From Rhodocyclaceae bacterium (GTDB lineage: Bacteria > Pseudomonadota > Gammaproteobacteria > Burkholderiales > Rhodocyclaceae), in NCBI GenBank assembly GCA_019455325.1, contig JACFMQ010000013.1, positions 1 to 64,000 on the forward strand: a stretch of DNA of 64,000 nucleotides, written 5' to 3'. Under the pieces are notes generated by a model. The model was not told where the DNA came from and ran no database searches. It saw nothing but the letters and a program-made list of their open reading frames with translations. This document shows positions 10,742 through 60,139 of this stretch, in pieces. A program made the position numbers and the translations under genes. Position 1 is the first letter of the stretch; the number at the start of each line of letters is the position of its first letter.

Positions 10742-10786
10742 GGCGGCACCTCTGAGCATGATGGAATGGATGCGAAGCGGGCAGTT

Positions 10787-10792: not shown

Positions 10793-10799
10793 CCGCGCC

Positions 10800-11282
10800 A
10801 TGCAGCGCAGAAGCCTTCTCCTCGCCTTCGCCGGCGCGCTCCTCGCGGCCTGCGGCAGCGTGCCGCCCGCGCCGGCGCCGCGCTCCGAACGTGCGCACCC
10901 GGCGCACGGCCGCGAGGCGGCGATGTTCGCGCTGTCGCTGCTCGACACCGGCTACCGCTTCGGCGGCAAGAACCCGGAGGCCGGGCTCGACTGCAGCGGC
11001 ATGGTTTCGTACATCTTCGACCGCGCCGCCGGCCTGCGCGTCACCGGCAGCGCCGCCGACATCGCCCGCCAGGGCCGGCCGGTGGCCAAGCACGAGCTGG
11101 CGCCCGGCGACCTCGTCTTCTTCAACACGCAGCGCCGGCCGTTCTCGCACGTCGGCCTCTACATCGGCGACGACCGCTTCGTGCACGCGCCGTCCACGGC
11201 CAGCGGCGGCGTGCGCGTCGACCGGCTGTCCAGCGGCTACTTCGCGTCGCGCTTCGAGGGCGGCCGCAGCTATTTCGACTGA
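10800..11282 (+). CDS. NlpC/P60 family lipoprotein (peptidoglycan endopeptidase)
   Basis: 160 residues. Lipoprotein signal with lipobox LLAAC, the Cys at about residue 17. The NlpC/P60 domain carries the catalytic Cys in LDCSGMVSYIF, the His in FSHVGLYIG, and the third polar site near DDRFVHAPS. These enzymes cut D-Glu-meso-DAP bonds in cell-wall peptides, and this one would act at a periplasmic membrane face. ATG 10800 is chosen because it gives the complete signal peptide. It is followed seven bases later by the Gcr-family gene, so the two may be co-transcribed. Confidence 0.9.
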   Translation: MQRRSLLLAFAGALLAACGSVPPAPAPRSERAHPAHGREAAMFALSLLDTGYRFGGKNPEAGLDCSGMVSYIFDRAAGLRVTGSAADIARQGRPVAKHELAPGDLVFFNTQRRPFSHVGLYIGDDRFVHAPSTASGGVRVDRLSSGYFASRFEGGRSYFD

Positions 11283-11289
11283 GCACACC

Positions 11290-13311: not shown

Positions 13312-13314
13312 GGA

Positions 13315-14247
13315 TCAGCGCAGGGCCGCCGCCAGCCAGTAGTAGGCCGGGATGCCGAGCAGCAGGTTGAACGGGAAGGTGACGCCGAGCGCGGCGCCGA
13401 TCGACAGCGCCGGGTTCGCCTCCGGCACGGCGATGCGCATCGCCGCCGGCGCCGCGATGTACGAGGCGCTGGCGTAGAGCGTGGCGAGCAGCGCGGCGCC
13501 GCCGACCGAGAGGCCGACGAAGGTCGCCGTGGCCGCGCCGAGCAGGCCGGCGGCGAGCGGCACGAGGACGGCGAAGCCGAACAGGAAGGCGCCGGCGCGG
13601 CGCAGGTCGCCGAGGCGGCTGGCGGCGATCAGGCCCATTTCGAGCAGGAAGAAGGCGAGCGCGCCCTTGAACAGGTCGAAGAACAGCCGGTCGAGCGGCG
13701 CGATGCCGTCCGGGCCGGCGGCCCAGCCGATGAGCAGGCCGCCGACCAGCGGCAGGACGCTCCGGCCGGCCAGCGCCTCGTGCAGCAGGCGGCCCCAGGG
13801 CGCACCGCGGCCGGCGCCGCGGGCGAGCAGCACGCCGATGAGCAGCGCCGGGAATTCGAGCAGCACGAGGAAGACGACGAGATGGCCCTCGGCCGCCTCG
13901 CCGCGGCTCGCCAGGTAGCTGGCGGCGACGGCGAAGGTGACGACGCTGACCGAGCCGTAGTGGGCGGCGATCGAGGCCGCGTCGCTGCGCGCGAAGCGGC
14001 CGAGGCGGCGGAGCAGCGCGAAGGCGACGAGCGGGATCAGCGCGGCGACGGCGACGACGACCGCGGCCTGGCCGGCGAGGTCGGCGAGCGCGTGCCGGGC
14101 CAGCTCGACGCCGCCCTTCAGGCCGATGGCGAGCAGCAGGAACAGGCTGAGCGACTCGTAGAGCGCGCCCGGCAATTTCAGGTCGGAACGCAGGACACCG
14201 GCGACGAGGCCGAGCAGGAAGAAGAGGACGACGGGTTCGAAGGGCAT
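13315..14247 (-). CDS. SbtA-type sodium-dependent bicarbonate permease
   Basis: 310 residues, about ten membrane segments in two inverted halves. N-terminus PFEPVVLFFLLGLVAGVLRSD and the following KLPGALYESLSLFLLLAIGLKGGVEL match the SbtA/DUF897 family, which imports bicarbonate with sodium. The start at 14247 gives the family's normal N-terminus; in-frame ATG 14313 or TTG 14322 would add an untypical leader and overlap the inverted repeat at 14312-14343. Divergent from a CbbR/CmpR-like LysR gene, a layout common for inorganic-carbon genes. No RuBisCO or carbonic anhydrase gene is in the window, so it may serve carboxylases of central metabolism. Confidence 0.85.
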   Translation of the reverse strand: MPFEPVVLFFLLGLVAGVLRSDLKLPGALYESLSLFLLLAIGLKGGVELARHALADLAGQAAVVVAVAALIPLVAFALLRRLGRFARSDAASIAAHYGSVSVVTFAVAASYLASRGEAAEGHLVVFLVLLEFPALLIGVLLARGAGRGAPWGRLLHEALAGRSVLPLVGGLLIGWAAGPDGIAPLDRLFFDLFKGALAFFLLEMGLIAASRLGDLRRAGAFLFGFAVLVPLAAGLLGAATATFVGLSVGGAALLATLYASASYIAAPAAMRIAVPEANPALSIGAALGVTFPFNLLLGIPAYYWLAAALR

Positions 14248-14311
14248 GGGCGTTTCGTTCGCAGGGATCGCCCCGGGATCGCGGGCGGGGCCACTATCGC
14301 TGTTCGCCTGC

Positions 14312-14343
14312 ATTAAATCCAATTAAACTAAATTCGGATTAAT
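14312..14343. promoter_or_regulatory. Candidate LysR-type operator between the bicarbonate permease and LysR genes
   Basis: ATTAAATCC (14312-14320) and GGATTAAT (14336-14343) form an imperfect inverted repeat in an AT-rich patch, with inner TTA/TAA elements. It lies 16 bases before the LysR GTG and about 65 bases before the permease ATG, as expected for an autoregulated divergent LysR promoter. Confidence 0.5.
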
Positions 14344-14359
14344 ATTTGCCGAGGCTTAT

Positions 14360-15301
14360 GTGCCGCGCCGCCGCATCACCTTCCGCCAGCTCGAAACCTT
14401 CGCCGCCGTCGCCCGCCTGAAAAGCTTCTCGCGCGCCGCCGAGGCGCTGCACCTGACGCAGCCGGCGGTGTCGATCCAGATCCGCCAGATCGTCGACGCG
14501 CTCGGCCTGCCGGTGTTCGAGCAGCGCGGCCGGGAGATCGTGCCGACGCCGGCCGGCGAGGAGCTGCTCGCCGCCGCGCGCGGCCTCGACGACGTGTGGA
14601 ACCGCCTCGAATCGGCGATCGCCGGCCTCAAGGGCCTGCGCCGCGGCAAGCTGCGCGTGGCGCTGGTGACCACCGCCAAGTACTTCCTGCCGCGCATGCT
14701 CGGCGACTTCTGCCGGCGTTACCCGGACATCGACATCGAGCTGGAGATCGCCAACCGCGAGCGCATCGTCGAGCGCCTGCGCGGCAACCAGGACGACCTC
14801 TACGTCATGTCCTATCCGCCGGCCGACCTCGACGTGGTCAGCCGGCCCTTCCTCGACAACGAGCTGGTCGTTGTCGCGCCGCCCGGCCATGCCGGCGCCG
14901 GCCGCCGGCTGACGCTCGCCGACCTCGCCGGCGAGCGCTTCCTGCTGCGCGAGCCCGGCTCCGGCTCGCGCCACGCCGTCGACGAGCACCTGCACGCGGC
15001 CGGCGTCCGCCTCGACGTGCGTCTGTCGCTGGCCAGCAACGAGGCGATCCGCGACCTCGTGGCCGGCGGCCTCGGCCTCGCCGTGCTCTCCCGGCACGCC
15101 CTCGGCGACGCGCTGGCGCGCGGCGAACTGGCCGTGCTCGACGTCGCCGGCTTTCCGCTGTGCCGCCCGTGGAGCGTCGTGCACCTGCGCGGCAAGGTGC
15201 TGCCGCTGCCGGCGCAGGCCTTCCTCGACGAGCTGCTGCGCGCCGGCGGCCAGGAGTCGGCGAAACCATCCGCCGCGCTGCCGGTCAACGAAGCACCATG
15301 A
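14360..15301 (+). CDS. LysR-family transcriptional regulator, CbbR/CmpR-like
   Basis: 313 residues, GTG start with GAGG about eight bases upstream. The N-terminal winged helix-turn-helix is clear (FRQLETFAAVARLKSFSRAAEAL, then LTQPAVSIQIRQI). The effector domain (RGKLRVALVTTAKYFLPRML, SNEAIRDLVAGGLGLAVL) resembles CbbR/CmpR regulators of carbon fixation and bicarbonate uptake. The divergent SbtA-type gene is the obvious target, through the inverted repeat between them. The gene's last codon overlaps the selO start (ATGA), so selO is co-translated with the regulator. Confidence 0.88.
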   Translation: MPRRRITFRQLETFAAVARLKSFSRAAEALHLTQPAVSIQIRQIVDALGLPVFEQRGREIVPTPAGEELLAAARGLDDVWNRLESAIAGLKGLRRGKLRVALVTTAKYFLPRMLGDFCRRYPDIDIELEIANRERIVERLRGNQDDLYVMSYPPADLDVVSRPFLDNELVVVAPPGHAGAGRRLTLADLAGERFLLREPGSGSRHAVDEHLHAAGVRLDVRLSLASNEAIRDLVAGGLGLAVLSRHALGDALARGELAVLDVAGFPLCRPWSVVHLRGKVLPLPAQAFLDELLRAGGQESAKPSAALPVNEAP

Positions 15302-42759: not shown

Positions 42760-43673
42760 CAGCCGCGCGCCGGAAAGAGGCCGGCCGGTTTCCAGAAGAG
42801 GATCGCCGCCATCAGGAGGTAGATGAGGATCGCCGCCAGCGCCGGTCCGAGGTTGGAGGCGACTTCCGCCGGCAGGAATTCACGCAGCAGCCAGGGCAGC
42901 AGCGCACGGCCGAGTGTATCGACGACGCCGACCAGCAGGCTGCCGACCAGCGCGCCGCGGATCGAGCCGATGCCGCCGATGACGATGACGACGAAGGCGA
43001 GGATCAGGATGCTCTCGCCCATGCCCACCTGCACCGCCAGCAGCGGCCCGAGCATGGCGCCGGCGAGCGCGCAGAGGCCGGCGCCGAAGGCGAAGACGAG
43101 GGTGAACAGGCGCTTCACGTTCACGCCGAGGGCCTCGGTCATCTCGCGGTTCGACGCGCCGGCGCGCACCCACATGCCGACGCGCGTCTTCGTCACGACG
43201 ACGTAGAGGGCGAGCGCGACGACGGCGCCGACGGCGATGATCAGCAGCCGGTAGGCGGGGTAGGCGAAGCCGCCGATCTCCACCGGCCCGGCGAGCGCCT
43301 CGGGCGCATTGAGTTGCATCGGCTGGTCGCCCCAGAGCATGCGCACCGCCTCGTTGGCGACCAGGATCAGCGCGAAGGTGGCGAGCACCTGCGCCAGGTG
43401 GTCGCGCGCGTAGAGCCGGCGCAGCACGGCGACTTCGAGCAGCGCGCCGACGAGCGCCGTGCCGGCCACCGCCGCCAGCGCGCCGACGACGAACGAGCCG
43501 GACGCCGCCGCCGCGGCCGCCGCCAGGTAGGCGCCGACCATGTACAGCGAGCCGTGCGCCAGGTTGATCATGTCCATGATGCCGAAGACGAGCGTCAGCC
43601 CGGCCGCCAGCAGGAAGAGCATGAGGCCGAACTGAAGGCCGTTCATGGCCTGTTCGAGGATCAGTTGCGTCAT
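42759..43673 (-). CDS. livH: Liv-type ABC transporter permease (LivH-like)
   Basis: 304 residues, about eight to nine membrane segments. Family motif GLTLVFGIMDMINLAHGSLYMVGAY near the N-terminus and GGIGSIRGALVGSLLVG near the C-terminus. The ATG overlaps the fic TGA (ATGA), so its translation is coupled to the Fic protein rather than to the binding protein. Confidence 0.94.
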   Translation of the reverse strand: MTQLILEQAMNGLQFGLMLFLLAAGLTLVFGIMDMINLAHGSLYMVGAYLAAAAAAASGSFVVGALAAVAGTALVGALLEVAVLRRLYARDHLAQVLATFALILVANEAVRMLWGDQPMQLNAPEALAGPVEIGGFAYPAYRLLIIAVGAVVALALYVVVTKTRVGMWVRAGASNREMTEALGVNVKRLFTLVFAFGAGLCALAGAMLGPLLAVQVGMGESILILAFVVIVIGGIGSIRGALVGSLLVGVVDTLGRALLPWLLREFLPAEVASNLGPALAAILIYLLMAAILFWKPAGLFPARG

Positions 43674-45022
43674 GCCGGCACGCTCGCCAAGCCGGCCAGG
43701 CGCTCGCGCAGGTCGGCCGGTGCGAAGAAGAGGAAGGCGTTGCCCTGCCGCGTCTTTTCGAGCAGGCCCACGGCTTCCAGTTCCAGCAGGTCGCGTCGGG
43801 CGGTCTGGTAGACGACGCCGTGCGAGCGCTGGTGCGCATCGACCCGATAGGCCTCGCCGGCGTTGCGCAGCGCGTGGTTGAGCAGGGCGACCTGGCGGTG
43901 GTTGAAGCGCCCGCGCAGATTCGGCGAGGCCGCCAGCAGGCGCTCGGTCTCCTTCTGCTCGCGCGATTTCCGCGCCACGTAGGCGTGCAGCGCGGCGATC
44001 GCCTGGCGAATGGTCTGCAACTGGTGCAGCAGGAAGTAGGTCGCGTCGTTCTTGTCGGTTTCGCTATGCAGGTAGGCGCGCATGTAGCGGGCCGGCGCCT
44101 TGCGCAGAATGTGGCTGATCGACGTGTATTCCATCAGCCAGTAGCCGCTTTTCGCCATCGACCAATAGAAGAGGGCGCGCGCCGTGCGGCCGTTGCCGTC
44201 GGCGAAGGGATGGTCGTAGCCGATCATGAAATGCAGCAGGATGGCGCGCAGCACCGGATGGACGAAGGGCTCCGAGGTCTCGCCGGCATTGGCGAAGTCG
44301 CACAGGCGCTGCATGCGTTCCGGCAGTTCGGCATGGACGGGCGGCACGTGCAGCGGCGTATTGTCGCGCGCGTCGACCACCTGCACGTCGTCGTCGCGCC
44401 GGTAGCGGCCGGCGTCCTCCGGGTTGGCCAGCGTGTCCTCGGTCAGGATGCGATGCAGTTCGAGCACGTGTCCGGGCGTCAGCTTCACGTCGCGCAGCGC
44501 GCGCAGGTGTTCCATCGCCTGATGGTTGTTGAAGATCATCCGCTCGCTCAGGTCCTTTGGCCGGCGGCCGCTTCTGAGCATGGCCGCGGCCACCTTGCGC
44601 GTCGTCGACGCGCCTTCCAGCTGGCTGGAGGTGATCGCCTCCTCGATCAGGGAACTGATCAGATAGCGTTGTGAATCCTCGTGCAGCGGCGCCTCGGCCG
44701 CCGCGCGGATGTAGCCGGCGGCATCCCGGTCGATGTGGTGCAGGTCGATCGCCACCGGGCTGGGCGTGGCGAACACGAAAGCTTCGCCGCGCTTGTCGAG
44801 CAGCGGCAGGGCCTGAAACAGCGACGCCCGCGACAGCGTCACCGCCGCCCACCATTCCTCGTGCGTCAGCCCTGCCGGCGCCGGACGCCGGCGCAGTTCG
44901 TCCCAGTGCAGGTACTTCCCCGCCGGCAGCGGGCCGGCGTGCTCCATCAACAGGCCGGGCCGCGCCGATGCGAGCCTGGCCAGCGCTGTTTGCAGCGCGG
45001 GCGCGTTTTCCGGAAGACGCAT
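43670..45022 (-). CDS. Fic-family protein AMP transferase with C-terminal winged helix
   Basis: 450 residues. N-terminal Fic_N region, then the catalytic motif HPFADGNGRTAR at residues 271-282 (His, Asp and both Gly/Arg present), so AMPylation activity is expected. An inhibitory-helix motif S132-x3-E136-G137 lies N-terminal to the Fic core, as in self-inhibited class II enzymes. The last 80 residues contain a winged-helix-like segment (NHRQVALLNHAL, YQTARRDLLELEAVGLLEK). The gene sits between the binding-protein and permease genes of a Liv operon, and its TGA overlaps the livH ATG. The ATG follows two TCTACTAA/TTAGTAGA palindromes and has no Shine-Dalgarno sequence. Targets unknown. Confidence 0.92.
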   Translation of the reverse strand: MRLPENAPALQTALARLASARPGLLMEHAGPLPAGKYLHWDELRRRPAPAGLTHEEWWAAVTLSRASLFQALPLLDKRGEAFVFATPSPVAIDLHHIDRDAAGYIRAAAEAPLHEDSQRYLISSLIEEAITSSQLEGASTTRKVAAAMLRSGRRPKDLSERMIFNNHQAMEHLRALRDVKLTPGHVLELHRILTEDTLANPEDAGRYRRDDDVQVVDARDNTPLHVPPVHAELPERMQRLCDFANAGETSEPFVHPVLRAILLHFMIGYDHPFADGNGRTARALFYWSMAKSGYWLMEYTSISHILRKAPARYMRAYLHSETDKNDATYFLLHQLQTIRQAIAALHAYVARKSREQKETERLLAASPNLRGRFNHRQVALLNHALRNAGEAYRVDAHQRSHGVVYQTARRDLLELEAVGLLEKTRQGNAFLFFAPADLRERLAGLASVPA

Positions 45023-48232: not shown

Positions 48233-48262
48233 TTGACAGCGAAACGACGCCCCGCCTATAAT
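48233..48262 (+). promoter_or_regulatory. tRNA-Lys operon promoter
   Basis: TTGACA (48233-48238), 18-base spacer, TATAAT (48257-48262), followed by the GC-rich discriminator CCGCGC, a pattern typical of growth-rate-controlled stable RNA promoters. Confidence 0.9.
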
Positions 48263-48287: not shown

Positions 48288-48363
48288 GGGTCGTTAGCTC
48301 AGTTGGTAGAGCAGCGGACTTTTAATCCGTTGGTCGCAGGTTCGAATCCTGCACGGCCTACCA
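48288..48363 (+). tRNA. tRNA-Lys (anticodon UUU)
   Basis: 76 nucleotides with encoded CCA. Cloverleaf is complete: anticodon stem GCGGA/TCCGT with loop CTTTTAA, T stem GCAGG/CCTGC. The acceptor stem has G1 opposite U72 and U4 opposite G69, while neighbouring pairs are normal. Confidence 0.95.
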
Positions 48364-48393
48364 GCCACGGAAAGGCACGAAATCGCAGCACAC

Positions 48394-48469
48394 GGGTTGT
48401 TAGCTCAGTTGGTAGAGCAGCGGACTCTTAATCCGTAGGTCGTAGGTTCGATCCCTACACAACCCACCA
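48394..48469 (+). tRNA. tRNA-Lys (anticodon CUU)
   Basis: 76 nucleotides with encoded CCA. Acceptor stem GGGTTGT/ACAACCC is fully paired, anticodon loop CTCTTAA (anticodon CTT), T stem GTAGG/CCTAC. Lies 30 bases after the first lysine tRNA and shares its promoter. Confidence 0.95.
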
Positions 48470-48638: not shown

Positions 48639-50435
48639 ATGACCGCATCCGAGCCCGCCCGTGCCGGCCCGCCTGCCTCCGCTTCGCCTCAGGTCGCCGA
48701 CCTGATCGTCGCTTATCTCGAACAACTGGGCATCGACTACGTCTTCGGCGTTCCCGGCGGCGCCATCGAACCGCTCTACAACGCGCTGGCGCGCAGCCAG
48801 CGGCGCGGCGGACCGCGGCCGGTGCTCGCCCGGCACGAATCCGGCGCGGCCTTCATGGCCGACGGCTACGCCCGCGAGACCGGGAAGATCGGCGTCTGCT
48901 GCGCCACCTCCGGGCCGGGCGCGACCAACCTGCTTACCGGCGTCGCCTGCGCCTACGACAACGGCGTGCCGATGCTCGCCATCACCGGCCAGCCGGCGCT
49001 GCCTTCCTTCGGCCGGCGGGCGCTGCAGGAGTCGGCGTGCACCGGCGTGAACACTCTCGGCATGTTCCTCCACTGCACGCGCTACGACACGCTCGTCTCC
49101 CATCCGGAACAGGCCGAGCACAAGCTGGCGACCGCGCTGCTGCGCGCCGCCAACGTGCCGCACGGGCCGGCGCACCTGTCGTTCCCGGTGGACGTCCTGC
49201 GCGCGCCGCTGGCCAGCGCCGTCCCCGCCTACGACGTGGCTGCGCTGCTGCGGCAGCGGCCGTCGCTGGTCGACGAGACGCAACTGGCGGCGTTGCTCGC
49301 CGTCATCCGGCAGGCGCAGCGCCGGGTCATCCTCGTCGGCGGCAGCCACGCCTGCGGCGAGGCGGCCGACGCCATCGTGCGCCTCGCCGAAGCCACCGAC
49401 ACGCCCTTCGTCACCTCGCCCGACGGCAAGGGCCTGGTCGACCCGCGGCACCGCCTGTACCGCGGCGTCTTCGGCTTCGCCGGCCACGCCACGGCCGACG
49501 CGCTGCTGCGGACCGAACCGGACCTGATCCTGGCGATCGGCGTCAACCTCGGCGAATGGACCAGCGGCGCCTGGTCGGCGACGCTGCTCAACCGGCGGCT
49601 GGTGCACATCGACGCCTCGGAGGAACACCTGCTGCGCTCGCCGATGGCGCGCCTGCACGTGCGCGGCGATATCCGGGCGGTGTGCGAGCGGCTGCTCGGT
49701 GCGCTCGCCGGGCCGCGGCCGCCGGCGGAGATGCGGAACGGCCAGGGCGAGCCGCAATACGCGCTGCGCGATCCGGCCGGCTTCGTTTCCGAGGCGGCGC
49801 CGATCAAGCCGCAGCGGCTGATGCACGAGCTTTCCCGCCGTTTCCCGCCGGGCACCCGCTTCCTCGCCGACGCCGGCAACAGCACTGCCTGGGCGATCCA
49901 TTACCTGCAGCCGAACGACCGGCGGACCGTGCGGCGGAACGATTTCGACGGCGACCGCCGGCAGCGCCGGGGCGACGCGAGCTGGCTGCGCGTGCTCATG
50001 GATTTCGCGCCGATGGGCTGGGCCATCGGCGCCGCCGTCGGCGTCGCCCGCGGCAACCCGACGGTGCCGGTGGTGTGCGTCACCGGCGACGGCAGCTATC
50101 TGATGAACGGGCAGGAAATCTCGGCGGCCGCCGCCGAGGGGCTGTGCGTCGTCTTCGTCGTCCTCAACGACGGCGCGTACGGCATGGTCAAGCACGGCCA
50201 GCGCATGGCCGGCGCCGAGCCGATCGCCTTCGCGCTGCCGGCGGTGGACTTCCGCCGGCAGGCCGAGGCCATGGGCATTCCCGGCTTCGTCGTGCGCTCG
50301 CCGGAGGACATGGCCGCCCTCGACATCGAGGCCATCCTTGCCCGCCGCGGGCCGACGCTGCTCGACGTGCGCATCGACGGCGAGGCGGTGCCGCCGATCG
50401 GACTGCGCCTGCAGGTACTCGGAGGAGCGACATGA
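48639..50435 (+). CDS. Thiamine-diphosphate enzyme, acetolactate-synthase-like
   Basis: 598 residues. N-terminal Pyr domain with catalytic Glu67 (LARHESGAAFMADGYARE), ATSGPGATNLLTG, central domain, and PP domain with GDG at 483-485 and the metal-binding Asn near 510 (GDGSYLMNGQ ... NDGAYGMV). The family decarboxylates a 2-oxoacid and may join the fragment to another carbonyl. ATG 48639 is preceded by GGGGGA; earlier in-frame codons run into the tRNA terminator. The stop overlaps the next gene (ATGA). No small regulatory ilvN-type subunit is adjacent, and the partner genes are citrate-synthase-like, so ordinary acetolactate synthesis is doubtful. Confidence 0.88.
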   Translation: MTASEPARAGPPASASPQVADLIVAYLEQLGIDYVFGVPGGAIEPLYNALARSQRRGGPRPVLARHESGAAFMADGYARETGKIGVCCATSGPGATNLLTGVACAYDNGVPMLAITGQPALPSFGRRALQESACTGVNTLGMFLHCTRYDTLVSHPEQAEHKLATALLRAANVPHGPAHLSFPVDVLRAPLASAVPAYDVAALLRQRPSLVDETQLAALLAVIRQAQRRVILVGGSHACGEAADAIVRLAEATDTPFVTSPDGKGLVDPRHRLYRGVFGFAGHATADALLRTEPDLILAIGVNLGEWTSGAWSATLLNRRLVHIDASEEHLLRSPMARLHVRGDIRAVCERLLGALAGPRPPAEMRNGQGEPQYALRDPAGFVSEAAPIKPQRLMHELSRRFPPGTRFLADAGNSTAWAIHYLQPNDRRTVRRNDFDGDRRQRRGDASWLRVLMDFAPMGWAIGAAVGVARGNPTVPVVCVTGDGSYLMNGQEISAAAAEGLCVVFVVLNDGAYGMVKHGQRMAGAEPIAFALPAVDFRRQAEAMGIPGFVVRSPEDMAALDIEAILARRGPTLLDVRIDGEAVPPIGLRLQVLGGAT

Positions 50436-51235
50436 GCGACGACCGGAAACAGGCGATCCGCACCCGCATCTGGCAGGAATCGCCGGAGGCCGACGACCCC
50501 TTTGCCGTGCGCGCTGCCCGCTGCCGCGGCTACGACGTCTACGGCGAAATGCTCGGCCGCGCACGCTGGGTGGAGATGCTCTACCTGCTCTTCCGCGGCG
50601 AGGCGCCGTCGCCGGCGGCGGCCGACCTCCTCGAGGCGCTGGCCGTGGCGCTGGCCAACCCCGGCCCGCGCGACGCTTCGGTGCATGCCGCCATGTGCGG
50701 CGGCGTCGGCGGCTCGACTGCCGCCGCCTGCCTGATGGCCGCGCTCGCCGCCGGCGCCGGCAGCCTCGCCGGCGGCCGCGAGGTGTTCCTGACGATGCGC
50801 GCCTGGGCCGACTGCGGCACCGACCTCGACGCCTGGCAGCGGCGCCTGGCATCGCCGCCGGCCGAGGTCGCCTCGGTCTGGCCGGCGGCGCAGCATCCGC
50901 CCGGCTTCGACCCGAACGGCGTGCGCACGGCGACGACGGTGCGGCAGACCCTCGCCTGCCTCGCCGACAACCCGGCGGCGCAGCGCCTGCGCTGGCTGGC
51001 CGAGACGCGCACGGCGCTGGAGGCGGCCGCCGGCCGGCCGCTGGCGCTCGCCGGCGTCGCCGCCGCCGCCTTCGCCGACCTGGGTTTCGCCGCCGAGGAG
51101 GGCGAGATGCTGCACCTCCTGCTGCGCCTGCCCGGTGCCGCGGCGCACGCGCTGGAACAGCGCGCCTACGGGTACAAGCGCTTTCCCTTTTACGAGATCG
51201 AACTGACCGACCCGGTGACGAAGGAGACACCATGA
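50432..51235 (+). CDS. Citryl-CoA-lyase/citrate-synthase-like protein A, catalytic residues altered
   Basis: 267 residues, shorter than citrate synthase (about 400). Family resemblance: RGYDVYGEMLGRARWVEMLYLLFRGEAP (residues 32-59) and a C-terminus ADLGF ... HALEQRAYGYKRFPF. By eye the three catalytic positions are changed: the HGG motif reads AGG (113-115), GxGH reads GFDP (158-161), and the late Asp is Ala/Gly near 207-208. It therefore may be an inactive or differently active partner subunit. ATGA overlaps join it to both the thiamine-diphosphate enzyme and protein B. Confidence 0.75.
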   Translation: MSDDRKQAIRTRIWQESPEADDPFAVRAARCRGYDVYGEMLGRARWVEMLYLLFRGEAPSPAAADLLEALAVALANPGPRDASVHAAMCGGVGGSTAAACLMAALAAGAGSLAGGREVFLTMRAWADCGTDLDAWQRRLASPPAEVASVWPAAQHPPGFDPNGVRTATTVRQTLACLADNPAAQRLRWLAETRTALEAAAGRPLALAGVAAAAFADLGFAAEEGEMLHLLLRLPGAAAHALEQRAYGYKRFPFYEIELTDPVTKETP

Positions 51236-52035
51236 GCGGACCCGATTCGCTGCGCGAACGCGTGGGCCGGCTGCGTACGCGGATGGGCGCGTTCTTTCCC
51301 GGCAGTCACGTCGTCTTCCGCGGGCATGATCTGCACGCCGAGCTGAAGGACATGGATTTTCTCCGGCTCTACGTCTTCGGCGTCACCGGTCGCAGCTTCT
51401 CCCCGCCGCAACTGGACCTGATGCGCGCGCTGTGGACCTACACCAGCTATCCCGACGCGCGCATCTGGAACAACCGCGTGGCGGCGCTCGCCGGCAGCGC
51501 GCGCAGCACCGGCAGCCTCGGCATGGCGGCGGCGCTGGCGGTTTCCGAGGCGCACATCTACGGGCGCGGCAGCGAAATTCAGGCACTCCGCTTCTTCATC
51601 GCCGCGCGCCGCGCCCTCGATGCCGGCGATACGCTCGACGCCTGCCTGCGCCGCGAGATGGAAACGCACGGCCGGATCGCCGGCTACGGCCGGCCGCTGA
51701 TCAACGCCGACGAGCGCATCGCACCGATCATGGCGCACGCCGAGTCGCTCGGCCTCGCCGACGGCCCGCACATCACGCTCGCCTTCGCCGTCGAGCGCCA
51801 TCTCCTCGACAACGGTCGCAACCTGCGCATGAACTACGGCGCCGTCGTCTCCGCCTTCGGCGCCGACCTCGGCCTGTCGCCGCGCGAGTTCTATTTGTTC
51901 ATGTTCCCCTCTCTCCTCGCCGGCATGCCGCCGTGCTTCATCGACGCCGCCGACGGACCGGAAGGCGGCCTCTTCCCCGTTCCCTGCGACGGCGTGGACT
52001 ACGAGGGACCGGCGCAACGGCCGTGGATTCGCTGA
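51232..52035 (+). CDS. Citrate-synthase-like protein B, catalytic residues altered
   Basis: 267 residues. Resembles citrate/2-methylcitrate synthase around YPDARIWNNRVAALAGSARS (73-92) and TGSLGMAAALAVSEAHIYGRG. By eye the usual HGG is replaced by YGR (110-112), GxGH by GYGR (151-154), and the Asp of NVD by Gly203 (MNYGAVVSAFGADLGL). Coupled by ATGA to protein A, and the two genes have the same length but differ in sequence, so a heteromer is likely. A TonB-dependent receptor follows after 74 bases. Function unknown. Confidence 0.75.
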   Translation: MSGPDSLRERVGRLRTRMGAFFPGSHVVFRGHDLHAELKDMDFLRLYVFGVTGRSFSPPQLDLMRALWTYTSYPDARIWNNRVAALAGSARSTGSLGMAAALAVSEAHIYGRGSEIQALRFFIAARRALDAGDTLDACLRREMETHGRIAGYGRPLINADERIAPIMAHAESLGLADGPHITLAFAVERHLLDNGRNLRMNYGAVVSAFGADLGLSPREFYLFMFPSLLAGMPPCFIDAADGPEGGLFPVPCDGVDYEGPAQRPWIR

Positions 52036-52109
52036 ACCGCCGATTCGGCAAGGGCGTATTTTTCGATTACCCTTCACGAAAACGTCGCCGTACTCGGGGG
52101 GAGGAAACC

Positions 52110-54188
52110 GTGAATCGTTATCATGCCCTGGCAGCATCCGTGCTGCTGCTGCAGGCCGCCGCGGTCGCGGCGCAGGGCGCCGAGGAAGAGGAAGACCTGG
52201 CGATGACCTACGGCGACAAGTCGTTCGTCACCATCGCCACCGGTGCTCCCGTACCGCTGCACCGCGCGCCGTCCATGGCGACGGTGATCACCGCCGAGGA
52301 CATCGCCGCCATCGGCGCCACCGACCTCGACGAGGTGCTGGAAACGGTGCCGGGCCTGCACGTCGCCCGCTCGTCGCAGGCCAACGCTCCGGTCTACGTG
52401 ATCCGCGGTATCCACCGCGACGCCAACCCGCAGGTATTGATGCTGGAGAACGGCATCCCGGTTTCCGGCGTCTTCGCCGGCAACCGCGGCAGCATCTGGG
52501 GCGGCATGCCGCTCGAAAGCATCGCCCGCATCGAGGTGATCCGTGGCCCCGGCTCCGCCGCCTACGGTGCCGACGCCTTTGCCGGCGTCATCAACATCAT
52601 CACGAAGACTGCGGCCGAGATCGACGGCACCGAGGTCGGCGTGCGCGCCGGCTCCTTCCGCACTGGCGACGCCTGGGTGCTGCACGGCGGCAAGGTGGGC
52701 TCGCTCGACGTCGCCGCCTATTTCCGCGCCGGCACCACCGACGGCCACGAGCGCAAGGTGCGCGCCGATGCGCAGACCAGCCTGGACCGTCTGTTCGGCA
52801 CCGCCGCCTCGCTCGCCCCCGGCCCGATCAGCACCGGCCGCAGGGCAGTCGATGGGCGGCTGGACCTCGGCTACGACAAGTGGCGCCTGCGCCTCGGCTA
52901 CAAGGAGCGCGACGACGTCGGCACCGGGACCGGTACTGCCTCGGCGCTCGATCCGGTCGGCAGCAACTACAGCCAGCGCATCACCGGCGACCTCACCTAC
53001 CTGGACAAGGATTTCGCCCGCAACTGGGAAGTTACGGCGCAGGCGAGCTTCATGCACTACAAGGAGTTCTCCGACCTCGTGCTCTATCCCGCCGGCACCA
53101 ATCTCGGCGGCGGCGCCTTCGCCGACGGCATGATCGGCAATCCCTACAAGTGGGAGCGACACGGGCGCTTCAATGCCTCGGCCTTCTATACCGGCTTCGC
53201 CAACCACCGCATTCGCCTCGGTGCCGGTATGGAAAAGGCGGAGATTTACCGGACGCGGGAAAGCAAGAACTTCAATCCGGACTTCTCGCCGATCGGCACC
53301 GGCTCCTACGCCGACGTCACGGATGTTTCCGACACCGCGCCCTTCCTCAGGCCGCACAGCCGCATCGTCCGCTACGCCTATCTGCAGGACGAATGGAACC
53401 TCGCCCGGGACTGGACGCTGACTGCCGGCATCCGCCACGACCGCTACAACGACTTCGGCAGCACCACCAACCCGCGCCTGGCGCTGGCTTGGGAGGCGGC
53501 CTACAACCTGACGGCGAAGGTGCTCTACGGCACCGCGTTCCGGGCGCCGTCGTTTACCGAGCAGTTCGCGATCAACAACCCGGTCGCGGTCGGCAACGCC
53601 AACCTCAAGCCGGAGCGGATGAGGACGCTGGAAGCGGCGGTTTCCTGGCAGCCGGCGAACACCCTGCATCTGAGCATGAACGTCTTCCGCTACGAGATGA
53701 AGGACGCCATCCAGTTGGTCAATGCCGTCTACAGCAACGCCGGCGAGCAGACCGGCAGGGGCCTGGAGTTCGAGGCTGCCTGGGATGCGACGCGGAACCT
53801 GCGCCTGGCCGGCAGCTACAGCCGCCAGCGCTCGCTCGACGAGACCACGAACAAGGATGCCGGCATGGCGCCGCGCAATCGCATCTACCTGCGCGCCGAC
53901 TGGCGCTTCGTTCCCGGCTGGCTGGCCAACGCGCAGGTCAACTGGGTCGCCGACCGCAAACGCGCCGCCGGCGACACGCGACCGGACATCGACGACTACG
54001 CGACGGTCGACCTGACCGTGCGCACGCAGCGCGGGAAGGACAAGTGGAACCTGGCCTTCTCGGTGCGCAACCTGTTCAATGCCGACGCACGCGAGCCCAG
54101 CCTGTTCGGCAGTCCCTTCGTTCCGCTTCCCTATGACATCCCCCTGGCGGGTCGCGCGTTTTTCGCGCAGGCCAGCTACCGCATGTAA
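52110..54188 (+). CDS. TonB-dependent receptor, CirA/BtuB-like
   Basis: 692 residues from a GTG with GGGGGGAGGA just upstream. Signal peptide ends near AAQG. Plug domain: ITAEDIAAIGATDLDEVLETVPGLHV, IRGIHRDANPQVLMLENGIPV, IEVIRGPGSAAYGADAFAGVINIIT; then a barrel ending in Arg-Met (SYRM), slightly atypical for a terminal aromatic. No STN domain. Imports an unidentified ligand. It follows the citrate-synthase-like pair by 74 bases and precedes an SDR gene by 11, so it may belong to that operon. Confidence 0.9.
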   Translation: MNRYHALAASVLLLQAAAVAAQGAEEEEDLAMTYGDKSFVTIATGAPVPLHRAPSMATVITAEDIAAIGATDLDEVLETVPGLHVARSSQANAPVYVIRGIHRDANPQVLMLENGIPVSGVFAGNRGSIWGGMPLESIARIEVIRGPGSAAYGADAFAGVINIITKTAAEIDGTEVGVRAGSFRTGDAWVLHGGKVGSLDVAAYFRAGTTDGHERKVRADAQTSLDRLFGTAASLAPGPISTGRRAVDGRLDLGYDKWRLRLGYKERDDVGTGTGTASALDPVGSNYSQRITGDLTYLDKDFARNWEVTAQASFMHYKEFSDLVLYPAGTNLGGGAFADGMIGNPYKWERHGRFNASAFYTGFANHRIRLGAGMEKAEIYRTRESKNFNPDFSPIGTGSYADVTDVSDTAPFLRPHSRIVRYAYLQDEWNLARDWTLTAGIRHDRYNDFGSTTNPRLALAWEAAYNLTAKVLYGTAFRAPSFTEQFAINNPVAVGNANLKPERMRTLEAAVSWQPANTLHLSMNVFRYEMKDAIQLVNAVYSNAGEQTGRGLEFEAAWDATRNLRLAGSYSRQRSLDETTNKDAGMAPRNRIYLRADWRFVPGWLANAQVNWVADRKRAAGDTRPDIDDYATVDLTVRTQRGKDKWNLAFSVRNLFNADAREPSLFGSPFVPLPYDIPLAGRAFFAQASYRM

Positions 54189-54199
54189 GGAAAAAAAAC

Positions 54200-54952
54200 G
54201 TGCAGAAACTCACAGGCAAGACCGCCCTCGTCACCGGCGGCAACAGCGGCATCGGCCTGGCGACGGCCCGGCTGTTCATCGAGCACGGCGCGCGCGTCGC
54301 GATCACCGGCCGCGACCCGGAGACGCTGCGCCAGGCGCAGGAACTGCTCGGCGGCGATGCGCTGGCGCTGCAAAGCGACGCCGGCAGCATCGAGGACATC
54401 GAACGGGCGCTGGCCGCCGTACGCGAACGCTTCGGCCGGCTCGACGTGCTCGTCGCCAATGCCGCCGTCGCGCAGCCGACGCCGTTCGAGCAGGTCAGCG
54501 AACAGCAGTTCGACGAGATCAACGCGATCAATTACAAAGGCGTCTTCTTCACCATCCAGAAGGCGCTGCCGCTGCTCGAACCGGGGGCTTCGGTGATCGT
54601 CACGACGTCGATCTCGAACGCCGCCGGCGCCCCGCACTTCAGCGTGTACGCCGCCGGCAAGGCGGCGCTGCGCTCGCTGGTGCGGTCGCTCGCGCTGGAA
54701 CTGATCGGCCGCGGCATCCGGGTCAATGCCGTCAGCCCCGGCCCGATCGATACCCCGGGCTTCGGCCGTTGGGGGCTGCCGGCGGAAGCCGTGCAGGCGA
54801 TCCGCGACGAATTCGTGCGCAAGTCGCCGGCCGGGCGCTTCGGCCATGCCGACGAAGTCGCTCAGGTCGCGCTGTTCCTCGCTTCGGCCGACGCGTCCTA
54901 CGTCGTCGGCGCCGAAATCGTTGTCGATGGAGGATTCAGTCTGCCGCTCTGA
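54200..54952 (+). CDS. Short-chain dehydrogenase/reductase
   Basis: 250 residues, GTG start with AAGGA upstream. Classical SDR: cofactor motif TGGNSGIG (12-19), NAA (87-89), catalytic Ser137, Tyr150 and Lys154 (VYAAGKAAL), then SPGPIDTPG. Arg38 after the second strand favours NADP(H). Substrate unknown; it could reduce or oxidise the product of the upstream thiamine-diphosphate/citrate-synthase-like genes. Confidence 0.92.
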   Translation: MQKLTGKTALVTGGNSGIGLATARLFIEHGARVAITGRDPETLRQAQELLGGDALALQSDAGSIEDIERALAAVRERFGRLDVLVANAAVAQPTPFEQVSEQQFDEINAINYKGVFFTIQKALPLLEPGASVIVTTSISNAAGAPHFSVYAAGKAALRSLVRSLALELIGRGIRVNAVSPGPIDTPGFGRWGLPAEAVQAIRDEFVRKSPAGRFGHADEVAQVALFLASADASYVVGAEIVVDGGFSLPL

Positions 54953-54999
54953 GGTGCCGACGTCCGCGCCGCGTCAATGCCGGCGGCAAGCATACGGCC

Positions 55000-55005
55000 T
55001 ATAAT
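55000..55005 (+). promoter_or_regulatory. Candidate -10 box of the binding-protein gene
   Basis: TATAAT six bases before ATG 55012 with CCGCCA between and no Shine-Dalgarno sequence. Confidence 0.5.
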
Positions 55006-55011
55006 CCGCCA

Positions 55012-56130
55012 ATGACAAAGTCCTTGCGCCGACTTCTGCTGCCGCTGTTCCTGGCCGCCGCCTGCGTTGCCGGCGCCGCACAGGTACGTGCCGCGGACGC
55101 CGTCGCGGCGGGCGGGGAGGCCGCTGCCGGCGGGATGCGGCGACCGGCGGCCGAGACGCTTCGCGTCGCGCTGGACGATGGCCGGGAGCGCCCCGCGGCG
55201 CAGCAGGCATCGTCCGCGAACCGCGCCGGCGCGGCGGCGACCCGTTCGGCGACGATCGCCGGCAGCAAATCGATCGCAGTCCTCTACCCGGACATCGGCG
55301 AACCCTATCGCAGCGTCTTTGCCAGGATCATCGAAGGCATCGAGGAGCGAGCGAAGAGCCCTATCACCAGCTACGCCGTCGGCGGCAGCTTCAACGCGCA
55401 GGAACTCGCCGGCGAGCTGAGGCGGAACGAGATACAGGTGGTGATCGCGCTCGGCCGCAACGGCCTGAAGGCTGCCGGCAGCCTCGACAAGGGCGTCGGC
55501 GTCGTGGTCGGCGGCATCATCTCGGCATCGGAGGCGGACGTGCGTGGCAGCGCGGTGCTCAGTCTGGCGCCCGACCCGGGGCTGCTTTTCACCCGGCTGA
55601 AGAGCATCGCGCCGCGCATCCAGCGCGTCTACGTGGTCTACAACCCGCACCAGAACGGCTGGCTGGCCCGTCTGGCGCACGAGGCGGCGCACAGCCACGG
55701 CATCGAACTGGTCGCGCAGGAGGCCGGCGACCTGAAGACGGCGCTCGGCCTCTACCAGAAGATCCTCGCCGGCAGCGACCCGCGCCGCGATGCGCTCTGG
55801 CTGCCGCAGGACGGCGCCACCGTCGACGATTCCACGGTGCTGCCGCTGGTCCTGCAGGAATCGTGGACGAGGAGCCTCGTCGTCTTCTCCAGCAACGTCT
55901 CGCACGTGCGCCGCGGCGCGCTCTTCGCCCTCTACCCGGACAACGTCGGCCTCGGCCGCAGCCTCGCCGAGGCCGCGCTCGGCGTCATCGCCGGCGAGCC
56001 GGCCGGCCGCGCGCCGCAGCCGCTGCGCGAGGTGCTGACCGCGTTCAACACGCGCACCGCCAGCCACCTCGGCCTCAACCTGTCGCCGGTGCAGTTGCGC
56101 ACCTTCGACCTGCTCTTCCCGGAACAATGA
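55012..56130 (+). CDS. ABC-type substrate-binding protein (PF04392-like)
   Basis: 372 residues. Signal peptide (LLLPLFLAAACVAGAAQVRA), a low-complexity Ala/Arg-rich segment to about residue 80, then a binding-protein fold (SIAVLYPDIGEPYRSVFARIIEGIEE, QVVIALGRNGLKAAG, RVYVVYNPHQNGWLARLAHEAA). No ABC permease or ATPase follows; instead the next gene, five bases on, is a membrane sensor kinase, so it may present a ligand to that sensor. Confidence 0.85.
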   Translation: MTKSLRRLLLPLFLAAACVAGAAQVRAADAVAAGGEAAAGGMRRPAAETLRVALDDGRERPAAQQASSANRAGAAATRSATIAGSKSIAVLYPDIGEPYRSVFARIIEGIEERAKSPITSYAVGGSFNAQELAGELRRNEIQVVIALGRNGLKAAGSLDKGVGVVVGGIISASEADVRGSAVLSLAPDPGLLFTRLKSIAPRIQRVYVVYNPHQNGWLARLAHEAAHSHGIELVAQEAGDLKTALGLYQKILAGSDPRRDALWLPQDGATVDDSTVLPLVLQESWTRSLVVFSSNVSHVRRGALFALYPDNVGLGRSLAEAALGVIAGEPAGRAPQPLREVLTAFNTRTASHLGLNLSPVQLRTFDLLFPEQ

Positions 56131-56134
56131 CGCC

Positions 56135-59100
56135 ATGACCTGGATGAGCCGCCTGCGCCGGGCCGACTTCCGCAGCCAACTGACCCTGCTCGCCGCCTCC
56201 GGCGTGCTCTGCGTGTCGCTGCTCTCGGCGCTGGCCACGTCCTGGCAGGGCGGCCGGCAACTGCATGCCGACAAGCTGCTGGAAGGCACGCGCATCGCCC
56301 AGAGCCTGGCCGCGCAGAGCCGGCTGGCGCTGATCTTCGGTTCGACCGAGAACGCTGCCGAAGCGGTGACCGCGGCCTACACCTTCCCCGACGTCGTCCG
56401 CGTCGAGATCCGCTACGCCGACGGCCGCCTGCTGCTCGAACAGGGCGCGCCGGCGACCAGCGGCGGCAACCGCGACGCGCCGGCGCGCGATACCCGCGAA
56501 GCCTACCTGGAGGACGAGGACGCCGGCGGCTGGCGCTTCGTCGCGCCGGTGTGGGCGAGTTCCGGCCCGGATTCGCCGTTCGAGGCCACCGAGCGTCGGG
56601 AGGTTCTCCTCGGCTTCGTCCGCATCGATCAGAGCAAGGCGACGCTGACGCGGCTGGTGCGCGAGGTGTTCGCGGTGAACTTCACCGCCGGGCTGGCCTT
56701 CGCGCTGCTCTTCCTGCTTGCGCTGCGCCTGCTGACGCGGCGCCTGACGCGGCCGCTGGCCGCGCTGTCGGAGACCATGGCGCGCGCCGAGAAGGGCGAG
56801 AGCGGGCTGCGCGCCGACCTCTCCGGCCCGCGCGACCTGGCCGAGATGGCGCACGCCTTCAACAGCATGATGGAGGCGCTCGAACAGCGCGAGCGCGAGC
56901 TGCGCACGGCGCGCGACAGCGCGCTGCACTTCGCCAAGCTGAAGGCCGACTTCGCGGCCACGGTCAGCCACGAGATCCGCACGCCGCTGAACGGCGTCAT
57001 CGGCACGCTCGACATGCTGAAGACCGGCAAGCTCGGCCGCGAGCAGCGCGAATTGCTCGATCTCGCCTGGGATTCGTCGCAGTACCTGCTCGAACTGATC
57101 AACAACATCCTCGACTTCTCCCGCCTGGAAGCCGGGCGCATGCACGCCGACGCGCGCGACTTCGAGCTGCGGCCGCTGATCGACGCGATCGCCGCGATGT
57201 TCCAGCCGCAGGCCGCCGCCAAGAAGGTCGAGCTGAACGTGCTCATCGCCGCCGACGTGCCGCCGGTGCTGAGCGGCGATCCGACGCGCATCCGCCAGGT
57301 GCTGGTCAACCTCGTCGGCAACGCCGTCAAGTTCACCGAGCGCGGTTCGGTGACGCTGACCGTCGAGCGCGCCGACCACGGCCACAGCCTGCGCTTCGGC
57401 GTGCGCGACACCGGCATCGGCATCGCTGCCGAGCACCAGGTGTCGATCTTCGACTCCTTCACCCAGGCCGATACCTCGACCACCCGCCGCTACGCCGGCA
57501 GCGGCCTCGGCCTGGCGATCAGCAAGCAGATCGTCGGGCTGCTCGGCGGCGAGATCGGCGTCGTCAGCGCCGAGGGCCGGGGCAGCCACTTCTGGTTCAC
57601 GCTGCCGTGCACGGAAGGGCGGACGCCGCCGGCCGCGGTGCCGGCGCGTCCGACGGGGCAGCCGCGCACCAGCCACATCCTGATCGCCGAGGACAACCGC
57701 ACCAACCAGCGCGTCGCCATCGGCATGCTCAACATGCTCGGCTGCTGGACCGGCATCGCCGGCAACGGCGCCGAGGCCGTCGCCGCGTGGCAGGCCAGCG
57801 ACTGGGACATGATCCTGATGGACTGCTCGATGCCGGAGATGGACGGCTTCGAAGCCTGCGCCCGCATCCGCGAGCTGGAGGCGGACAGCGGCCGGCGCAT
57901 CCCGATCATCGCCATGACCGCCAACACGCAGCAGGTCGACGTCGAGCGCTGCCTGGCCGCCGGCATGGACGGCCACCTGCCGAAGCCGCTGACGCTGGAG
58001 GCGCTGGCCGCGCAGCTCGAACGCTGGCTGCACTGGCGGCCGTCGCCGGAATCCGCCGACGGCGGCGAGGCCGGCCGCCCGGTCGACCCGGCGGCGATCG
58101 GCCGGCTGCGGGACATCCTCGGCGACGCGGTCGACGAAGCCATCCTTCCCTTCCTCGAAGACATGCCGCGCTACCTCGCGCAGCTCGACGCCGCCGCCGG
58201 CAGTGGCGACGCGACGACGCTGCGGCAGGTGGCGCACGTCGTCAAGGGCGCTGCCGCCAACCTCGGCGCGACGGCGATGGCCGAGCTGGCCCGCGAGCTG
58301 GAGCTGTGCGCCGAGGCTGATCCGCCCGCCGATGCCGGCGAGCTGGTCCGGCGCCTGCGCACCGAGTTCGCCGTCGTCGAACCGATGCTGGCGGCCGAGC
58401 TGGGCGGCAGCCGCCACGATGCGTCGCCGGAACCGCAGATCGACGCGCCCGTCGTCCTCGTCGTCGACGACGACCGCAGCACGCGCTCCGCGCTGCGTCA
58501 TGCGCTGCGCCTCTCCGGCTTTCGCGTCGAGGAGGCGGGCGACGGCGCCAGCGCGCTTGCCTGGCTGGAAAAGGCCGGCGCCGACGTCGTCCTGATGGAC
58601 GCGATGATGCCGGTGCTGGACGGCTTCGCCGCCTGCCGCAGGCTCAAGCAGCACCCGCGGCTGAAGGACGTGCCGGTGCTGATGATCACCGCCCTCGACG
58701 ACCGGCAGTCGATCGAGCGCGCCTTCGACGCCGGCGCCAGCGACTTCATTCCGAAGCCGATCCACCTTTCCGTCGTCAACCAGCGCGTGCGCCGCGTCAT
58801 CGACGCCACCCGCGCCGAGCGCCACGTCCGCCACCTCGCCTACAACGACGCGCTGACCGGCCTGCCCAACCGCATGCTGTTCCTCGACCACCTGACGCAG
58901 TCGATCGAGCTGGCCGCCGGCGCCGGCGGCCAGCTCGCCATCCTCTTCCTCGACCTCGACCGCTTCAAGTACGTGAACGACACGCTCGGCCACGAGGCCG
59001 GCGATCAACTGCTGGCGACCATGGCGCAGCGCCTGAAGGGCTGCGTGCGCGCCGACGACTGCGTCGCCCGCTTCGGCGGCGACGAATTCGCCGTCCTCCT

Positions 59101-60139
59101 CGACGCGCTGCCGAACGTCGGCGTCGCCGCCAGCGTCGCCCAGAACATCTGCCGCACCATCTCCGCGCCGCTGATCATCAACGGCAACGAGATCGTCGTC
59201 ACCGCCAGCGTCGGCATCTCCATCTATCCGGCCGACGGCCGCGACGTCAGCACCCTGCTGCGCCACGCCGACACCGCGATGTACCGGGCCAAGCAGAGCG
59301 GCGCCGGTGTCTGCTACTACGAGGCGGCGATGGAGGCGGCGCTGGCCGACCGCCTGAAGACCGAGAACGCGCTGCGCCGGGCGCTCGAACGCGGCGAGAT
59401 CGCCGTCTTCTACCAGCCGGTGATCGACGCCGGCAGCGGCCGCGTCGCCGGCGTCGAGGCGCTGGCGCGCTGGCGACATCCGGAGCGCGGCCTGGTGGCG
59501 CCGGCCGAGTTCATCCCCCTGGCCGAGGAAACCGGGCTCATCCTGCCGCTCGGCGAACTCGTCCTGCGCAGCGCCTGCGCCCAGGCCAAGGCCTGGCTGG
59601 ACGCCGGCCAGCCCGATTTCCACGTCGCCGTGAACCTCTCGGCGAAGCAGATGGAACAACCGAACCTGCGCGACATCGTTCTCGACGCCCTCGAGGAAAG
59701 CGGCCTGCCGCCGGCGTCGCTGGTCCTCGAGATCACCGAGAGCGTGCTCATGGAACGCACCTGCGAACCGATCGGCATCCTCGACGAACTGCGCGCGCTC
59801 GGCGTGCGCGTGTCGATCGACGACTTCGGCACCGGCTATTCCTCGCTCGCCTACCTCAAGCACCTGCCGGCGGACAACCTGAAGATCGACCGTTCCTTCA
59901 TCCAGGATCTGCCCGACGACGACGCCGTCTCCATCGTCACCGGCATCATCGCGCTCGCCCACAGCCTGCGCATGAAGGTCGTCGCCGAAGGCGTCGAAAC
60001 GCCGGCGCAGCGCGACGTGCTGCTCGGCCTCGGCTGCGACGTGCTGCAGGGCTTCCTGTTCTCCAAGCCGGAGCCGGGCGAGATCATCGAGGCGCAACTG
60101 ATCGCCTCCGGCCGCAACGGGCCGACGCCGCCGCCGTGA
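56135..60139 (+). CDS. Hybrid sensor kinase with Hpt, GGDEF and EAL domains
   Basis: 1334 residues. Two membrane helices (about 15-36 and 182-205) enclose a periplasmic sensor. Then HAMP, HisKA (SHEIRTPLNG, His near 278), HATPase (NLVGNAVKF, DTGIGIAAE), receiver 1 (LMDCSMPEMDGF, Asp near 562), Hpt (AHVVKGAAANLG, His near 702), receiver 2 (LMDAMMPVLDGF, Asp near 821), GGDEF (RFGGDEF near 980, with RADD inhibitory site), and EAL (VEALARWRHP near 1108, DDFGTGYSSL, VVAEGVET). Both c-di-GMP synthesis and breakdown motifs look intact. Follows the binding protein by five bases. Confidence 0.95.
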   Translation: MTWMSRLRRADFRSQLTLLAASGVLCVSLLSALATSWQGGRQLHADKLLEGTRIAQSLAAQSRLALIFGSTENAAEAVTAAYTFPDVVRVEIRYADGRLLLEQGAPATSGGNRDAPARDTREAYLEDEDAGGWRFVAPVWASSGPDSPFEATERREVLLGFVRIDQSKATLTRLVREVFAVNFTAGLAFALLFLLALRLLTRRLTRPLAALSETMARAEKGESGLRADLSGPRDLAEMAHAFNSMMEALEQRERELRTARDSALHFAKLKADFAATVSHEIRTPLNGVIGTLDMLKTGKLGREQRELLDLAWDSSQYLLELINNILDFSRLEAGRMHADARDFELRPLIDAIAAMFQPQAAAKKVELNVLIAADVPPVLSGDPTRIRQVLVNLVGNAVKFTERGSVTLTVERADHGHSLRFGVRDTGIGIAAEHQVSIFDSFTQADTSTTRRYAGSGLGLAISKQIVGLLGGEIGVVSAEGRGSHFWFTLPCTEGRTPPAAVPARPTGQPRTSHILIAEDNRTNQRVAIGMLNMLGCWTGIAGNGAEAVAAWQASDWDMILMDCSMPEMDGFEACARIRELEADSGRRIPIIAMTANTQQVDVERCLAAGMDGHLPKPLTLEALAAQLERWLHWRPSPESADGGEAGRPVDPAAIGRLRDILGDAVDEAILPFLEDMPRYLAQLDAAAGSGDATTLRQVAHVVKGAAANLGATAMAELARELELCAEADPPADAGELVRRLRTEFAVVEPMLAAELGGSRHDASPEPQIDAPVVLVVDDDRSTRSALRHALRLSGFRVEEAGDGASALAWLEKAGADVVLMDAMMPVLDGFAACRRLKQHPRLKDVPVLMITALDDRQSIERAFDAGASDFIPKPIHLSVVNQRVRRVIDATRAERHVRHLAYNDALTGLPNRMLFLDHLTQSIELAAGAGGQLAILFLDLDRFKYVNDTLGHEAGDQLLATMAQRLKGCVRADDCVARFGGDEFAVLLDALPNVGVAASVAQNICRTISAPLIINGNEIVVTASVGISIYPADGRDVSTLLRHADTAMYRAKQSGAGVCYYEAAMEAALADRLKTENALRRALERGEIAVFYQPVIDAGSGRVAGVEALARWRHPERGLVAPAEFIPLAEETGLILPLGELVLRSACAQAKAWLDAGQPDFHVAVNLSAKQMEQPNLRDIVLDALEESGLPPASLVLEITESVLMERTCEPIGILDELRALGVRVSIDDFGTGYSSLAYLKHLPADNLKIDRSFIQDLPDDDAVSIVTGIIALAHSLRMKVVAEGVETPAQRDVLLGLGCDVLQGFLFSKPEPGEIIEAQLIASGRNGPTPPP

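Follow-up and report, generated by a model that had tools for sequence, protein, structure and literature searches.

The Seven-Gene Locus and Its Closest Described Relatives

The thiamine diphosphate (ThDP) enzyme CybE couples two alpha-keto acids and has CsmA and BbmA as homologues, according to parts of the published work on these proteins (PMC12395478, PMC13307353, PMC8777810, PMC13288894). In the furanolide and carbazole pathways, as described in the portions of the literature covered here, the CybE-type product is joined to an acyl-coenzyme A (acyl-CoA) or to an acyl-acyl carrier protein (acyl-ACP) by CybF, whose annotation is oxoacyl-ACP synthase, or by the KASIII-like CqsB1. A run of seven genes in a 64,000-nucleotide stretch of contig JACFMQ010000013.1 from a Rhodocyclaceae bacterium (this whole stretch is called the window, and gene coordinates refer to it) opens with a ThDP enzyme apparently akin to this group, but in the place that those pathways, as covered here, give to a KASIII-like or oxoacyl-ACP synthase partner it has a pair of proteins with the citrate synthase fold.

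The downstream genes recall systems of another kind. LuxP-LuxQ and NspS-MbaA each consist of a periplasmic binding protein and a sensor, and the likeness lies in the gene layout, a binding-protein gene adjoining that of a membrane hybrid kinase or GGDEF-EAL sensor. The locus differs from both in that its binding protein is PF04392-like, a TonB-dependent receptor is included, and the presumed synthase genes stand in the same block. On balance, we favour the view that the seven genes at 48639–60139 form one unit for making and sensing a small molecule, whose most likely role is that of a signal. T, A, B and S are read as its production half and R, P and H as its perception half, the shorthand being as follows:

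T, 48639..50435, + strand: ThDP enzyme
A, 50432..51235, + strand: citryl-CoA-lyase-fold protein, first catalytic His and the Asp exchanged, with H155 as an uncertain occupant of the middle-His position
B, 51232..52035, + strand: second citryl-CoA-lyase-fold protein, all three catalytic residues exchanged (GYGRP, NYG), with the DPR-type Arg retained (DER)
R, 52110..54188, + strand: TonB-dependent outer-membrane receptor, GTG taken as start
S, 54200..54952, + strand: reductase of the short-chain dehydrogenase/reductase (SDR) family
P, 55012..56130, + strand: periplasmic binding protein, slightly under the PF04392 (ABC_sub_bind) cut-off (25.1 vs 25.9 bits)
H, 56135..60139, + strand: hybrid sensor kinase of 1334 residues, HAMP-HisKA-HATPase-REC-HPt-REC-GGDEF-EAL, with two REC stretches
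Two tRNA-Lys genes, 48288..48469, + strand: immediately 5' of T

The ATGA overlaps at the T/A and A/B junctions, reported in a preliminary description of the first three genes (48639–52035), are confirmed, and the TonB receptor and reductase placed there after B are present as R and S; the layout extends further, to P and H. These four genes follow T-A-B on the same strand with spacing of at most 74 bases, which makes the whole a single-strand run. T, A and B are not the housekeeping copies, because the genome encodes two further proteins above the citrate synthase cut-off and two acetolactate synthases; it also encodes one sulfoacetaldehyde acetyltransferase and one ThDP paralogue under all listed cut-offs. 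P is the sole PF04392 match in the genome and has no paralogue there at E ≤ 0.001. Scans for promoters and terminators gave no informative result for the block; a perfect TTGACA-18-TATAAT match at 48233–48262 precedes the tRNA-Lys genes.

The Thiamine Diphosphate Enzyme

The solved structures nearest to T are BbmA (303 bits; presumably the protein labelled 'BpmA' in the literature), CsmA (222 bits) and acetolactate synthase I (201 bits). A 24-row tree places T and its orthologues with BbmA and CsmA (support 86/96) and the acetolactate synthases opposite, the two of the same genome falling apart from T. T thus appears, with moderate support, to belong on the side of the BbmA/CsmA/CybE alpha-hydroxy-beta-keto acid synthases (PDB 8x3x, 8x3z; furanolide pathway) and not with acetolactate synthase.

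The Paired Proteins of Citryl-CoA Lyase Fold

That A and B retain a citrate-synthase-type fold, as proposed in the preliminary description, is borne out by profiles, AlphaFold2 models and structure matches alike. Single-sequence annotation hardly reaches them: A barely attains the Pfam citrate synthase family (28.3 bits, cut-off 27), B has no Pfam match at E ≤ 1, and both match the NCBIfam citryl-CoA lyase model far under its cut-off. Profiles built from 59 sequences each find citryl-CoA lyase 6hxp at 6.7e-10 (A) and 2.9e-9 (B) and match each other with a probability of 95.5. The AlphaFold2 models (predicted local distance difference test scores of 84.2 for A and 86.4 for B) show the citryl-CoA lyase fold, and the top matches for both proteins with Foldseek and VIA are 6hxp or modules of ATP-citrate lyase.

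A and B thus share fold, length and distant sequence homology with citryl-CoA lyase (6hxp) and PRK06224-type proteins, but differ from them in their residues, in forming two distinct adjacent chains and in their partners. The catalytic positions were compared through a sequence alignment in which nine representatives each of A and B were set against both citrate synthases of the genome and seven citryl-CoA-lyase-like proteins from relatives, and conservation was counted over 84 distinct A and 89 distinct B sequences. By this alignment, the first catalytic His is found in only 2 of 84 A sequences and is absent from the 88 of 89 B sequences tabulated; the position of the catalytic Asp appears to hold Gly in 80 of 84 A sequences, with no Asp among the tabulated B residues; and the middle His seems to be replaced in B by Arg (R154) in all 89. 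The preliminary description held that both proteins lack the two His and the Asp of citrate synthases, which stands for the first His and the Asp of both and for the middle His of B; in A, a His (H155, 76/84) may occupy the middle position, where phmmer and hmmsearch place it and MAFFT does not. The classical set has been partly lost already among the kin of A and B, since the seven lyase-like proteins (L019–L025) have the middle His in all seven cases but lack the first His in 7/7 and the Asp in 6/7. These proteins lie outside the block, and their customary name may be wrong.

Other positions are strongly kept. At least 95% conservation is seen at 26 polar, Trp or Cys positions in B and 20 in A, and the near-invariant stretches of B include TSYPD-R-WNNR, GYGRP and DER. 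Judged from these residues, the active site of A and B was probably rebuilt rather than decayed. The start codon of B lies in the ATGA that closes A in 76 of 87 measured pairs, and extra copies arise together, as A-B-A-B-B in L050 and T-A-B-T-A-B in L121 (L and G numbers label loci and genomes, respectively); this coupling and joint multiplication argue for A and B acting as one unit.

Distribution and Genomic Context

The distribution of the genes was followed in 150 relatives, the genome itself included (thresholds of E ≤ 1e-60 for T, 1e-20 for P and 1e-120 for R). T occurs in 16 of them, one of which (G130) has a 33% match only; this match aside, T and strong matches to A are confined to the identical 15 genomes. 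Weak A matches (E ≥ 1e-8, lyase-like) occur in eight. B accompanies T and A in 14 of the 15, the contig of the fifteenth stopping within A, and has one weak match elsewhere. P was found in 18 and R in 19 relatives. T-A-B and P occur together in 12, T-A-B without P in three (G019, G036, G080) and P without T-A-B in six (G001, G023, G031, G043, G071, G126). Across a class sample of 369 genomes (B and P at E ≤ 1e-25), B was present in 42, P in 44 and both in 37 (Fisher p 2.7e-38, uncorrected for kinship). The two genes lie at most 20 kb apart in 29 of these 37 genomes and on separate contigs in eight. Four of the latter were examined: in G318 and G304 both genes are near contig ends, so that an assembly break may account for the split; in G454 they are far from the ends, and G226 is unclear. 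A scan of viral contigs with A gave no relative, and a tblastn search of plasmids with B gave no match.

A scan with the B alignment yielded 229 relatives, and the 80 best of these were taken as the named loci; the presence of B in them is therefore by choice, and some share genomes with the 150 relatives (e.g., L079 and G019). By title they are mostly Betaproteobacteria, and also Methylomonas, Geobacter/Pelotalea and others, the carriers including Gallionella, Sideroxydans, Dechloromonas, Collimonas and Aquabacterium. A is present in all 80, T in 72, R in 70, P in 55 and S in 32, S standing between T and A in 26; among the 56 that span at least 18 kb, T occurs in 55, R in 53 and P in 43. The survey of the three-gene block proposed in the preliminary description finds A and B together, mostly with T. 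T is unmatched in eight loci. In five of these the contig begins no more than 0.6 kb before A, in L076 a piece of a T-family gene lies at the edge, and in L066 and L126 the contig is long enough for the gene. Among distant class members (B at 26–32%), the set is recognisable in L168 and L170, T and R being fragmented in the latter. The Geobacter/Pelotalea loci (L090 and L095 included) have divergent T (33–34%) and R (30–32%), with PF04392 or other solute-binding proteins and kinases beside A-B. The L172 locus (9408–15294) groups T, R, P and a kinase, with a methyltransferase gene separating T from R; A and B were not found there, and the methyltransferase is perhaps an alternative second step.

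Beyond the genes of the set, no family occurs in more than 10 of 81 loci (the 80 and the window copy) when the chosen open reading frames of at least 90 residues are clustered. A sulfotransferase family is found in 10 loci (Pfam on two), and in L135 (10817–12804) a sulfotransferase and an adenosine 5'-phosphosulfate (APS) kinase lie immediately 3' of A-B. The families of ATP-binding cassette (ABC) transporter ATPase, pyrophosphatase and tetrahydrofolate dehydrogenase occur in seven loci each, the last two in the identical seven. In the window, a Fic-like protein (43670–45022, − strand) with an HPFADGNGR motif is seen by eye within an apparent branched-chain amino acid ABC transporter cluster.

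Six relatives have R-P-H without T-A-B. In the congener G001, a draft genome of 90% completeness, the tRNA-Lys pair and flanking genes that look alike by eye are present together with R-P-H (L142, 8056–11962), and T, A, B and S are unmatched between them; the tRNA-Lys pair thus marks the site where this strain has no T-A-B.

A Proposed Route from Synthesis to Perception

T-A-B and R-P-H are linked and co-occur, as the autoinducer synthase and receptor genes of a quorum-sensing system would be expected to; by inference, a single molecule would be made by the former and perceived by the latter. If T makes a beta-keto acid as its relatives do, A and B, probably joined in a heteromer whose rebuilt active site they share, would couple this acid to an acyl-CoA and so take the role held by CybF or CqsB1 in the furanolide and carbazole pathways. 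Decarboxylation of the beta-keto acid could provide the nucleophile (decarboxylative coupling); with carbon dioxide loss supplying it, the Asp/His acid-base set of citrate synthase would be dispensable, and the kept Arg of B could hold the carboxylate. S would then reduce a carbonyl. The product may leave the cell, be carried into the periplasm by R and be bound there by P, which would signal to H; the phosphorelay and the GGDEF-EAL part of H would alter the state of the cell in the manner of LuxP-LuxQ or NspS-MbaA. The LuxI family (PF00765) has no match in the genome, yet the control was silent in 14/14 genomes too, so that this absence carries no information. The weakest steps of this route are the release of the product and the identity of the ligand, for R, P and H would be explained by a metallophore too.

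Several observations weigh against this proposal. The halves are not always together: T-A-B stands without R and P in G019 and G080, 5 of the 42 B-bearing class genomes are without P, and 13 of the 56 long loci lack P and Hs matches. The solo R-P-H sets may mean that the ligand is of outside origin. No recurring exporter was seen among the 81 loci, and the PDB relatives of R are receptors for siderophores, colicin I and cobalamin, which would suit a metallophore too. The tree of T is limited by its moderate support, the long branch of CsmA and few references, and the best NCBIfam model for T is acetolactate synthase, if far short of the cut-off (300 vs 538 bits). Finally, A-B is found without a T match in L066 (7211–8790, with 7.2 kb of sequence upstream of A) and L126 (9192–10795, in 20.8 kb of sequence), and in the distant class members L164 and L165, which have A, B and R. 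The preliminary description expected A and B not to occur apart from the thiamine enzyme in a citrate synthase context; at these four loci A and B do stand without a T match, and no citrate-metabolism family is among the recurrent neighbours, single or rarer neighbours being mostly unannotated.

Alternative Explanations

The main rival, in our estimate an unlikely one, is that T, A, B and S make a hydroxy-carboxylate or hydroxy-ketone chelator, that R imports its metal complex and that P and H report the supply of metal-ligand. R resembles siderophore and CirA/BtuB-type receptors. SbnG, a citrate-synthase-like enzyme, serves the synthesis of a carboxylate siderophore, and several carriers of the set belong to Gallionella and Sideroxydans, which are iron oxidisers. 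However, families that could move a metal complex across the inner membrane or export the chelator are found in at most 7 of 81 loci (the maximum being the ABC ATPase, which in the window copy belongs to a separate ABC transporter cluster), and P and H stay together, six relatives carrying them with R only.

The uptake and catabolism of an outside compound, imported by R, converted by T-A-B-S and sensed by P-H, has in our view a slimmer chance still. This extends the hypothesis of the preliminary description, of which the adjacency of R and S to T-A-B holds; citryl-CoA lyases do cleave carbon–carbon bonds, R-P-H exists alone, and a sodium:solute symporter is present in L095. What is recurrent beside T, A, B and R is the binding protein together with the sensor kinase and S, while an inner-membrane importer or further catabolic family is not common among the 81 loci. 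T lies on the side of the carboligating enzymes in the tree, and the sulfotransferase, APS kinase and methyltransferase neighbours resemble tailoring. The absence of a common neighbour for inner-membrane passage and these tailoring-type enzymes make the catabolic view less likely.

We give little credence to the idea that A and B are non-catalytic, serving T as a scaffold or regulatory pair. The loss of the classical catalytic residues speaks for it, but several of the highly conserved positions of B and A lie in stretches aligned with active-site loops, and at L172 a methyltransferase replaces A-B, as expected for an enzymatic step. A heteromer with changed chemistry seems to fit better than a bare scaffold, because the fold is kept, A and B mostly occur with the ThDP enzyme, they multiply jointly and they have near-invariant residues of their own. 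An ordinary acetolactate synthase placed beside citrate metabolism genes by accident is hardly credible: the best NCBIfam names are indeed acetolactate synthase and citryl-CoA lyase, but all scores fall far under the curated cut-offs, besides T, A and B the genome encodes a pair of acetolactate synthases and a pair of citrate synthases, and T, A and B co-occur near-strictly.

Conclusions

Since A and B lack the first His and the Asp of the catalytic set and T does not reach the acetolactate synthase cut-off, the set joins no named family, and we file it as small-molecule production and sensing of undescribed composition. No description of a set with this layout was found in the open-licence literature, which is not proof of absence; the statement in the preliminary description that no such pathway was known agrees with this search. 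A possible biological setting comes from Azoarcus BH72, for which part of one study reports density-dependent regulation via unidentified secreted molecules (PMC3262810). Three regulated genes for TonB receptors and a GGDEF/EAL protein are named there, which could not be tied to the set described here, and citrate synthase, citryl, acetolactate and thiamine go unmentioned in the part of that paper covered here.

If the production-and-sensing view is true, about one in nine sampled class genomes (the 42 of 369 with B) would carry an undescribed set for synthesis and perception with cyclic di-GMP and phosphorelay outputs. The strains with the receptor half alone would then listen without producing. 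The locus would put the citrate synthase fold to a new use and offer a candidate for cell–cell signalling that can be tested directly.

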